NCBI RefSeq assembly: GCF_031202305.1
Contig: NZ_CP101731.1
Span: forward strand, 310,001-374,000
Length of the DNA: 64,000 nt
Source: Pelagibacterium sp. 26DY04
GTDB lineage: Bacteria > Pseudomonadota > Alphaproteobacteria > Rhizobiales > Devosiaceae
Direction of reading: 5' to 3'
A program made the translations under genes and the position numbers. Positions 3,084-37,333 of the stretch are shown in pieces (position 1 is the stretch's first letter; every line of letters begins with the position of its first letter). Under the pieces are notes generated by a model that was not told the origin of the DNA, made no database searches, and saw only the letters and a list, made by a program, of their open reading frames with translations.

Positions 3084-5966
<2,883 letters not shown>

Positions 5967-5976
5967 GGAGGATGTC

Positions 5977-7478
5977 TTGCGCCTTACAGATGGGCAACTC
6001 AACTTCGCAAAGAGACACCTCGAAAGATTCGATGACTCAGATTTTTTTCCACGTTTCGACGAATGGGATGCAGTTTGGCAAGATTGGGACAATTTTAGAG
6101 GCCGTCTCACCGCTTCTAATATTGGGAAACTACCTTTATCAGCAGCCCTTTCCATGCCGGTGGCAAAAGGATGGTCAGCTATCGCGTGGTGCACCAACTC
6201 GAACCGATCACATCTTTAATTTACATTTCATTAGTTCACGCTGTGGCGCCGGCGCTAGAAGCGGCGAGAGCAACTAATGAAACCGCGTGTTCGCACCGTT
6301 ATTTGCCCGACGATGGCGCTTTCTTTTCGGGAGGTGCTGGCTACGAGAGCTTTAGGCGACGTTCGTATGAGCTTGCGGAACGGTACGATTATGGCGCTTC
6401 GATCGACATTGCCGACTTCTACAATCAAATATATTCGCATCGTGTTCGAGGATCAATCGAGGCGGCGAGCGCCGAACTCACAGGAATTGCAAAAGACCTA
6501 GAAACGGTCATTCATGCTATCAACTCGCAAGCATCTAAAGGAATTCCAGTAGGAAATGATGCCAGTGCCATCCTCGCCGAAGGAATATTAATTGACGTTG
6601 ATCAACTAATTTCGCGCAGCGGCCTTGATCATACGCGATACGTCGATGATATCCGTATATTCGCTGATAGTCCGCAGCATCTCTTAAGCGCTATCGAAAC
6701 TATTTCAGAATACTTGTATGATCATCATAGACTGCATCTGAATTCGAGCAAAACCAAGCTGCTCGATATAGAGAATTTCGTCAGCGTGGTGATGCAAGAT
6801 CATATGGATGCGGAATCAGAGGCGGCCATGAATAGGTTGAATCTGATAGATCCCTACGGTGAGGAGGAGCTAGGCGAGAACGATGTGCCGGATGAGGAGG
6901 TCTTGGAAGAAATTGGTCAAATAATAAGAAAAAAATATGCTGAGGATGGATTTGTTGATTTAAACCTTATCAAGGCATTTGTTAGAAGGTGCAGATTATT
7001 GCGGTCGTGTGCCTTCGTCGAAGTTGCTATAGAGAATATCCATCCATTTATACCGGCGATCCATGAATTGTGCCGCGCCATTGAAGCTGCAGCAGACCAA
7101 CATGGCCCCGATGCTGTGAAGGGGCTAATTGCTACGATTAGAAGCTCGCCCCACTATCAGCGCAAAGCAGTCAAGATGTGGCTCGATTGGACCTGCGCCG
7201 GGCACGCTGAATTTATTCGTGATCACAGCATTCGTGATGACGTATTTAGTGGAAATGTACGAACTCAAGCTCGCGCCGCATTAGTGTCTCGCGATCTGGC
7301 CTGGGTTAGAGCGCAACGGGGAACGTTTATTCACTTACCGCCCACCCAACGCTCGGCTGTCTTAATGTCAATGCAGTTGTTGGGACAGGATGAACGACGC
7401 GTGCTTTTGGGTCATATCGACGAGTCTAACGGTTCCCCTGTTGATGTTGCTATCAAGAGGTGGCTGATCGCCCGCTAG
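5977..7478 (+). pseudogene. reverse transcriptase, UG/Abi (DRT-like), frameshifted
   Basis: Two overlapping frames together encode one reverse transcriptase of about 500 residues. The first part (5977 to about 6168) starts at a TTG with GGAGG five bases upstream, directly after the polA stop. The second part continues one frame back from about 6168 to 7478. The shift lies at a run of four A (6165-6168), where AAA could slip. RT motifs follow in order: HQLEPITSLIYISLV, motif A IDIADFYNQIY (Asp at 6405 and 6414), motif B GIPVGNDASAILAE, motif C YVDD (6639-6650) and a motif D-like HHRLHLNSSKTKL. About 240 helical residues follow, as in the alpha-repeat tails of UG/Abi phage-defence RTs. There is no maturase or integrase domain, which argues against a group II intron or a retroelement. 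Base composition is clearly AT-richer than the neighbours, a sign of transfer. It may be a broken gene, a sequencing error or a recoded gene. Confidence 0.8.
6163..6173 (+). other. frameshift point in the reverse transcriptase
   Basis: The sequence GCAAAAGGATG marks where the upstream frame (ending VAKG) must pass to the downstream frame (starting MVSYRVVHQLEP). Stepping back one base on AAA restores a continuous RT. The upstream frame otherwise stops at 6219. The ATG at 6171 has AAAAGG immediately before it, too close to be a good ribosome site. Confidence 0.65.
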
Positions 7479-7497
7479 GGTACTGTCCAACGGTTCT

Positions 7498-8241
7498 TCA
7501 CTGCCCATGCTCCGATCCATTCCACCCTTCACCACCCTTCCCCCCACCCCCAAACACCTTCGCCGCCCCCGCCACGGCCTGTCCCACATAAATCACCAGC
7601 GCGCACCCGATCGGCGTGCCCACTTCGGCCACCAACGTCCCGCTCAAAAACACCAGTGACAGCGCCCCGGCCTCTGTAACATGCGCCTGCGTCAAAAGCG
7701 CCGTCACCGCGCCGCCGAACACCAGCCCCACCCCTGTGCCGGTCCAAAGATAAGGCGGCATCCGCGTCACCTCGCGATGCACCAGCAGCGCCAGCAGCCA
7801 GGCGAGCAGCCCGTATTCGATCCCCCGGATCAGCGACACGGTTTCGATGGGGATGAGGTTTGCCGTCTGCGGCGCGTCGATCAGTTCGGCCACAAGTTTC
7901 TGCAGCGCCTTGGCCGCCGCCAGCGCCAAGGGAGCGCAAAGCGCGGCAACCAGCCCGGCCAGAACCCGCCGCGCCCGGCCCACGGCAATGGCGATGGCCA
8001 CGCCCGAGCACACCAGCGCCACCCAGCTCACCGTTTGCGCCGTTTCCACTGCTATCGCCAGTCCCGGCCACGGCCCGCCGGACAGGTTTCGGGCGATGAC
8101 GATAAGCACCTGCATCAAAAGCCCCAGCCCGATGCCCAAAACGGCAACGGTCCCGATCCGTTGCAGCGTGCGCCGGGCCGCCGCGGCCTCCCGGGTCGGG
8201 GGCAGGGGGTGTATGGGGTCCGGGACGGTGGCTTGGCCCAT
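7498..8241 (-). CDS. multi-pass membrane protein, unknown function
   Basis: I do not recognise a family. The product has about 247 residues and roughly six hydrophobic segments, starting near IGTVAVLGIGLGLLMQVLIV, with short loops and a Gly/Lys-rich C-terminal tail. The longest frame starts at 8313, but GGAGGAGAGG lies right before the ATG at 8241, so I start there. It is convergent with the reverse transcriptase, with 19 bases between the stops, and it restores the high-GC codon use of the host. Confidence 0.65.
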   Translation of the reverse strand: MGQATVPDPIHPLPPTREAAAARRTLQRIGTVAVLGIGLGLLMQVLIVIARNLSGGPWPGLAIAVETAQTVSWVALVCSGVAIAIAVGRARRVLAGLVAALCAPLALAAAKALQKLVAELIDAPQTANLIPIETVSLIRGIEYGLLAWLLALLVHREVTRMPPYLWTGTGVGLVFGGAVTALLTQAHVTEAGALSLVFLSGTLVAEVGTPIGCALVIYVGQAVAGAAKVFGGGGKGGEGWNGSEHGQ

Positions 8242-8837
8242 CCTCTCCTCCATTTCCGCACCTTTGCGCGGAAGGCAGCCGGTCCGGTGCGTTGGCCGGC
8301 CGGAGCGGATCATACGCCCCCGGGATCAAACCGCGAAGCGCTTTGGGAGCATCGCGTCACCCTCTCGAAAAAACTTATCCCCGCCCCCAATCACCTGCCG
8401 TAACTTTCCCTCACGGCCGCACCGGGGCAAGGGATGCATACGAACTTCCTGGTGAGGGCAAGAGTGGGGAAGGGGGAAGCGGGGGTCCGGGCCTAGGATC
8501 ACTCAGGTCTCCAGGCGCCTCTCTCTGTCCGTTGGCCGGTTCGAGGGAATGGCGGGTCGCCGCCATTCGGGACGGACTGCGTGGACCAGGTCTGACACCG
8601 AAGGTCATCCGTAAGTCGCTGGTGGCAAGTCAACTGGCCATCAAAAATCGCCGAAGCCCACCAGAAAGGGCGTGTTGACGGCGAGGGCGCTGGGAAAGGG
8701 GAAAAAAGGGTAAGCTCCCCGGGTTGCGCATCTCCGAGATCCAAAAATCCTCGGATGCATGGGGCGATGGTGGCTTCATATTATAAAAACATAATGCGAG
8801 GCGATCATCGCCCCATGCCTGCCCACCTTAAGCAAAA
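8242..8837. other. 600-base non-coding stretch
   Basis: No convincing gene lies here. The open frames seen are short, overlapping and lack family features. I looked for RNase P, tmRNA, SRP RNA and tRNA signatures and found none. The left part presumably holds the promoter of the membrane protein. The right part contains a 13-bp inverted repeat described separately. Confidence 0.4.
8757..8818. repeat. 13-bp inverted repeat around an AT-rich loop
   Basis: GCATGGGGCGATG at 8757-8769 is perfectly repeated in inverted orientation at 8806-8818, separated by 36 bases rich in A/T. No gene starts nearby on the plus strand, and the MFS terminator follows at 8838. It could be a folded RNA, a protein site or a remnant of a small mobile element. 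Confidence 0.6.
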
Positions 8838-37243: not shown

Positions 37244-37333
37244 TGGCGGAGAGAGAGGGATTCGAACCCTCGAGACGGTTCCCCGCCTACACACTTTCCA
37301 GGCGTGCGCCTTCGACCACTCGGCCATCTCTCC
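37244..37333 (-). tRNA. tRNA-Ser(GGA)
   Basis: On the minus strand the acceptor stem GGAGAGA pairs with TCTCTCC, the discriminator base G precedes an encoded CCA, and the T-loop reads GGTTCGAATCC. The anticodon loop CTGGAAA gives anticodon GGA. The 90-base length with a long variable arm is typical for tRNA-Ser. This tRNA reads UCC and UCU codons. Confidence 0.95.

Follow-up and report, generated by a model that had tools for sequence, protein, structure and literature searches.

According to the accessible parts of the literature, several DRT reverse transcriptases (RTs) require a noncoding RNA (ncRNA) (PMC13213688), as does DRT10 (PMC12632851), and the mechanism of DRT8 is called unresolved (PMC13213688). 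A gene of the DRT8 family was found at positions 5977–7478 of a 64,000-nt stretch of the Pelagibacterium sp. 26DY04 genome (NZ_CP101731.1, positions 310,001–374,000 of the forward strand; hereafter, the window), directly behind polA. Pelagibacterium belongs to the Devosiaceae, in the Hyphomicrobiales. We consider it probable that the gene is a horizontally acquired, antiviral RT gene of the DRT8 family with one frame offset, and that it is the present tenant of a defence hotspot that starts at the polA stop of the Devosiaceae. Sequence comparisons established the family of the RT, the break in its frame, the retention of its conserved residues, and, for the region behind polA, both gene turnover and the presence of defence genes. 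The hotspot is of greater interest than the RT itself.

The closest described places are the hotspots cDHS1 and cDHS2 of Pseudomonas aeruginosa, which, in the accessible text, are fixed by core genes and hold many unrelated defence systems with no single mobile element (PMC10250203). The region behind polA is alike in these respects: in most genomes a common core gene flanks a variable region, and many unrelated defence systems are found there. It differs in that its cassettes are mostly short (~1–2 kb), the polA stop codon forms its left boundary, its use extends across a family, and the right flank appears not to be fixed. The defence island hotspots of Escherichia coli are also single places reused by different defence genes; many are described, in the available portion of the text, as having mobile elements or integrases, hotspot 37 being mostly without a detectable element, and polA is not mentioned in the main text (PMC10121019). 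Among the open-literature matches listed, no title or opening part of an abstract named a polA hotspot.

The RT gene and its frame break

Both pieces of the gene were matched best by the PADLOC model Drt8. The C-terminal frame (6171–7478, + strand; 435 aa from the ATG at 6171), which holds most of the RT core and the helical tail, matched profile positions 66–490 of 493 with an E-value of 4.5e-103 (344 bits); the second-best PADLOC model was RT_UG21 (E 1.7e-28, 97.6 bits). The N-terminal frame (5977–6219, + strand; TTG start at 5977), of whose 80 aa approximately the first 65 are homologous in alignments, matched profile positions 2–71 (E 1.3e-8). Because both pieces match Drt8, they belong to one gene, far beyond chance. 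In Pfam, the C-terminal piece matched RVT_1 (1.2e-12) and the N-terminal piece had no match. No NCBIfam model reached its curated cut-off, the C-terminal piece scoring 45 of 235 bits for retron St85 and 43 of 300 bits for the group II intron RT. A first-pass annotation had taken the gene for a horizontally acquired, defence-type RT, had stated that it could not be assigned to a named UG group, and had proposed a search of RT and UG profiles. The first statement is supported, Drt8 being the best model and retron St85 and group II intron RTs falling far below their cut-offs, and the second has been superseded: judged by its sequence, the RT is DRT8.

A protein search found 211 relatives among 7998 scored candidates, and the best 120 of the 211 were listed. 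Among the matches listed, the nearest relatives besides the RT's own protein were P0002–P0005 (56–63% identity), and P0002–P0012, including two Mesorhizobium proteins (P0008 and P0009), were 46–63% identical to the C-terminal piece. Drt8 was the best model in all ten RTs scanned singly, seven of them relatives and three from fetched loci. The first-pass annotation had also called for a tree. In a tree of 48 rows, the window RT grouped with P0002, P0003, P0004, P0007, and P0011 with support of 100/99; the deeper forks were weak, with long branches (DRT6, DRT2, L112, and others), and the deep groups cannot be ordered. Compared with DRT8 as a family, the window RT, like its relatives, is a best profile match over its whole length; it differs in being a divergent subclade and a frame-broken copy, with a −1 offset in place of a single intact reading frame. 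By descent it belongs to DRT8, and it is probably a broken member.

The frame junction is a run of four A residues at 6165–6168 (+ strand), where three-frame translation compared with relatives places the −1 offset that had already been noticed in the first-pass annotation. The RT motif IDIADFYNQ (6402–6428) and the catalytic YVDD (6639–6650) are both read on the + strand, in translation of the second frame. In an alignment of 18 rows, two of which were the window pieces, full-length relatives continue across the junction in a single frame with no break there; P0002, P0009, P0011, and P0012 are short at the N-terminal end and uninformative on this point. When the two pieces were placed separately on a 44-row alignment of relatives (A3), the window RT was found to keep all 32 invariant positions and 44 of the 46 near-invariant ones, each in its covering frame, indicating that the RT was under selection until recently, or still is. 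Judged from these alignments, the RT looks freshly broken, or else the break is a sequencing indel.

There are two alternatives to a broken gene. In the first, the break is a programmed −1 frameshift, through which the protein is made. The conserved residues kept in both frames would fit, and AAAA permits slippage; however, no canonical slippery heptamer was seen at the junction, the RNA 3′ of the shift folded no better than shuffles (z 0.11), and the aligned full-length relatives are without the break. This alternative was rejected for want of RNA structure past the site, and we regard it as very unlikely. In the second, to which we give a minor but real chance, the cell has an intact gene and the break is an indel that arose in sequencing or assembly. 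The full conservation of key residues speaks for an indel. Against it, the site is a run of only four bases, whereas a run of seven T residues within the gene (6043–6049) reads in frame, which speaks mildly for a true mutation and against an error in reading a homopolymer, and the assembly is a single contig; neither point is decisive.

The surroundings of the gene are compact. polA (3084–5966, + strand; 960 aa, TAA stop at 5964–5966) forms the left edge of the hotspot; the named protein most similar to its product is the PolA of Pelagibacterium mangrovi (92% identity), and a PolA match was present in 39 of the 41 genomes searched, the own genome counted. The RT starts 10 nt after polA on the same strand, and a ribosome site, GGAGG (5967–5971, + strand), occupies the first bases past the polA stop in the sequence. 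The low-GC cassette spans 5967–7497, from polA to a convergent open reading frame (ORF) that, in the ORF list, forms its right edge (7498–8313, − strand; 271 aa); the two RT frames have GC contents of 0.47 and 0.49, compared with 0.68 in the next gene and 0.64 further downstream. Between the RT stop and the convergent stop, the sequence leaves 19 nt (7479–7497). The first-pass annotation had described the ribosome site, the AT-richness, and this gap as they were found here. No terminator-like site was found within 5500–8400, and neither a promoter-like nor a terminator-like site at the polA/RT junction. Searched at E<=1e-8, the 12 other genomes of the genus contained no match to the convergent ORF, and the right flank is thus also particular to the Pelagibacterium sp. 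26DY04 genome.

Fold and predicted mode of action

The fold was compared using a model of the relative P0003, not of the window copy. In this model, an RT core is followed by a C-terminal helical tail, in line with the long helical tail predicted in the first-pass annotation. The model aligned along its length with DRT6, DRT4 (UG15), Abi-P2, and AbiK, in which RT core and helical domain were both matched; identity to these proteins is only 12–16%, and they belong to a separate profile family. With DRT9 and DRT2, the model was aligned over the RT core only (VIA-align rows), which is no proof that the tails differ. A priming tyrosine in the N-terminal region would be expected of an enzyme of this group. 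Unlike DRT6, DRT4, Abi-P2, and AbiK, the N-terminal piece of the window RT is without tyrosine. Tyr84 of P0003 is invariant among relatives, and no correspondence to Tyr44 of AbiK was demonstrated.

The modeled fold match suggests that DRT8 carries out ncRNA-free, protein-primed DNA synthesis. Intact DRT8 would act like AbiK, Abi-P2, DRT4, and DRT6: a single gene would encode the RT core and the helical tail, the enzyme would serve as its own primer for DNA synthesis and need no RNA template, and infection by a phage would render the product harmful to that infection. The window copy would yield a peptide of 80 aa; the most that could be made besides is a product of 435 aa that starts at the ATG at 6171 and lacks the first 66 residues. 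Defence is therefore probably off in this copy, as far as the reading frames tell.

A competing proposal is that DRT8 depends on an ncRNA, as DRT2, DRT3, DRT9, or DRT10 do, and that the window copy has lost this RNA or keeps it inside a neighboring coding region. The ncRNA requirement of several DRTs and the mechanism of DRT8, left unresolved in the review text cited above, make room for such a dependence, and 100–400 nt are free upstream of many of the compared RTs. However, there is no space on either side of the window RT, some distant relatives are tightly placed too (15 nt upstream in L049 and 6 nt downstream in L108, both from mechanical ORFs), and DRT6, DRT4, and AbiK match the fold from end to end, whereas DRT9 and DRT2 do so in the RT core alone. 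We consider the dependence unlikely. An adjacent ncRNA was rejected, since there is no room for one and no Rfam match near the RT, as the first-pass annotation had argued for the downstream side. The sole Rfam match in the window was a tRNA at 37 kb; ARAGORN likewise found a single tRNA in the window, tRNA-Ser(GGA) at 37244–37333.

The variable region behind polA

The DNA behind polA was compared in 97 genomes (the window, 16, and a further 80), chosen non-randomly with a preference for long contigs from 125 family genomes with a polA match. Mean GC in the first seven 250-bp bins behind polA was 0.571, 0.556, 0.572, 0.566, 0.565, 0.577, and 0.594, compared with ~0.63 from 2.5 kb onward. A 500-bp stretch at least 0.07 below the genome's own GC baseline was found behind polA in 65 of the 97 genomes, a count in which G004 and G115 are negative solely because too little DNA was fetched, and a 500-bp stretch with GC below 0.55 lay within 1.2 kb behind polA in 60 of 97. 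Upstream of polA, such a stretch occurred in 2 of 16 relatives. Outside the Devosiaceae, 16 genomes of the order were examined, 12 of which gave a usable measure, and a GC drop above 0.09 was seen in 3 of the 12; the same comparison inside the family, on a different baseline, gave 51 of 94. On these numbers, the hotspot is claimed for the Devosiaceae only.

Other core genes served as controls in 30 of the 97 genomes, a set picked by the authors and rich in cassette carriers. Behind polA, 25 of 30 genomes had the 500-bp stretch below 0.55 GC within the first 1.2 kb, compared with 5 of 30 behind recA, 12 of 29 behind uvrA, and 2 of 30 behind gyrA. Genome pairs with a common protein match in the first 1.2 kb numbered 7 of 435 behind polA, 428 pairs sharing none, whereas they numbered 435 of 435 behind recA, 192 behind uvrA, and 154 behind gyrA.

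The region holds a variety of defence genes. Control ORFs, the longest behind recA, uvrA, and gyrA, numbered 85 from 90 places (five had no ORF of at least 115 aa), and none of the 85 matched PADLOC at 1e-10. A matched polA set of 28 ORFs was drawn from the 30 genomes with a limit of 1.43 kb, by which the window RT is lost and other ORFs are shortened; it matched 20 PADLOC families. A wider set of 103 ORFs matched 132, of which 42 came solely from the window RT; families rather than proteins are counted here. Among the families listed for the 103 ORFs were antiphage dCTP deaminase (3), HSDR_N (5), Peptidase_M78 (4), SLFN_AlbA_2 (4), SocA (3), and GIY-YIG (3).

When 20 large ORFs behind polA, chosen by the authors, were scanned singly, 13 had a PADLOC match. 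DRT2 (E 3.1e-125) lies ~290 nt past the polA stop in another genus of the family (G016, L047:6757-8067), and DRT6 (E 6.2e-138) ~0.9 kb behind polA in G084 (L139:1973-3598), so that three DRT families (DRT8, DRT2, and DRT6) are found less than 1 kb from polA, each in another genome. Further strong matches were antiphage dCTP deaminase (G079, E 2e-155), HEC-07 (G104, E 5.9e-183), NsnA (G105, E 2.9e-69), AbiU (G126, E 6.2e-97), and HEC-01A (G125, E 8e-195); AriA (G086, E 8.7e-24) and HerA (G094, E 1.3e-25) were weaker, and pAgo (G080 and G113), REase (G128), and RmrA (G078) scored low. Seven ORFs (G083, G097, G059, G110, G129, G136, and G082) had no match at the thresholds used. Pfam showed a caspase domain in G097, Schlafen AlbA_2 in G080, and DUF4365 in G007. 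Cassette ORFs start anywhere from right at the polA stop to ~1.4 kb after it. As a separate observation, large low-GC ORFs behind polA with no PADLOC match at these thresholds (L152, L148, L160, L184, L179, and L133) are candidate undescribed anti-phage genes.

The same comparisons bear on a functional tie to polA, raised in the first-pass annotation, by which the RT would be expressed through polA read-through and defence would follow the expression of DNA polymerase I. The shared strand, the 10-nt gap, and the junction free of promoter-like and terminator-like sites are as such a tie would have them. Within the family, however, DRT8 stands behind polA in the Pelagibacterium sp. 26DY04 genome only. 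Drt8 was matched at E<=1e-40 in 7 of 136 family genomes, the own genome included, and the other six genes lie on a different contig from polA or, in G022, 0.8 Mb away from it. As these six are also only 26–34% identical to the window RT, the latter arrived on its own line. Moreover, orientation was counted in a different set, the 65 genomes in which a low-GC ORF of at least 115 aa (or the window RT) starts within 2.2 kb: 29 such ORFs run with polA and 36 against it (19 and 21, respectively, among the 40 that lie no more than 100 nt from polA). Coupling in a polA operon was rejected on these two grounds, and a functional tie is highly improbable. The position of the RT is explained by the family defence hotspot, not by an operon or by coupling to polymerase I. 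The first-pass annotation had named as a refuting outcome that the whole family has this gene behind polA, and this was not seen; the place is common, the gene is not.

Cassette edges and exchange

In the same 65 genomes, the near edge of the low-GC ORF was no more than 50 nt from the polA stop in 32, and in seven it overlapped the stop. Integration at an attachment (att) site in the polA 3′ end was examined by comparing up to the last 60 nt of polA (all 60 in 51 of 97 genomes) with up to 4.5 kb of downstream DNA. The longest shared word averaged 9.3 nt, compared with 9.1 in mismatched pairs, with two cases of 13 nt, and this route was rejected. In the own genome, besides polA itself, only weak partial matches to the polA end were found (best, 43 bases at 82%, E 0.02), and no site-specific integrase was among the families listed for ORFs behind polA, which were the first 25 per library.

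These results also weigh on the proposal that the polA region is not special and reflects ordinary turnover past any gene end, or the scars of larger mobile elements. The surroundings of uvrA and gyrA do vary too, as the pair counts above indicate, and single transposase matches (IS3, IS481, and Pfam rve, one each) are among the families listed for the 103 ORFs. Yet polA, with seven sharing pairs, stands far outside the controls, no control ORF matched PADLOC, and neither an att-like copy of the polA end nor a listed integrase points to a larger element. We judge this proposal quite improbable and retain the hotspot.

The right edge was followed within the genus. In several genomes (L300–L307), polA is followed by a gene that we take to be DUF1810-like. 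Among 13 genus genomes, this gene was near full length in five (G002, G005, G003, G011, and G012), partial in three (G006, G008, and G009), and not found at E<=1e-8 in five (G000, G001, G004, G007, and G010). This variable cutting indicates that cassettes leave polA whole at the left and are cut variably at the right. Separately, a short remnant of the end of the gene was read by eye in G007, and palindromic intergenic repeats of the GTCATCCTCGGGCTTGACCCGGGGATC type border the right cassette edge in G007 and G008 (L033 and L035).

The simplest reading of the turnover is exchange by recombination. Mostly one- or two-gene cassettes would be exchanged behind polA; the need for an intact polA would fix the left break at its stop, and the right break would wander into the next gene. 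A bolder and doubtful version, which we hold only tentatively, is that the polA stop of the Devosiaceae is a true landing site, to which single anti-phage genes are delivered in either orientation by a recombination route that acts in trans and uses no att repeats, and that most unnamed genes there are undescribed anti-phage systems. If this were true, the polA stop would serve as a trap in which new defences, DRT8-like polymerases among them, could be discovered.

For DRT8, which the accessible review text leaves without a mechanism, the fold match yields a testable prediction, and the three DRT families within 1 kb of polA form a natural comparison set. For the Devosiaceae, one housekeeping gene that marks compact defence genes across the family would offer a cheap route to new anti-phage systems.
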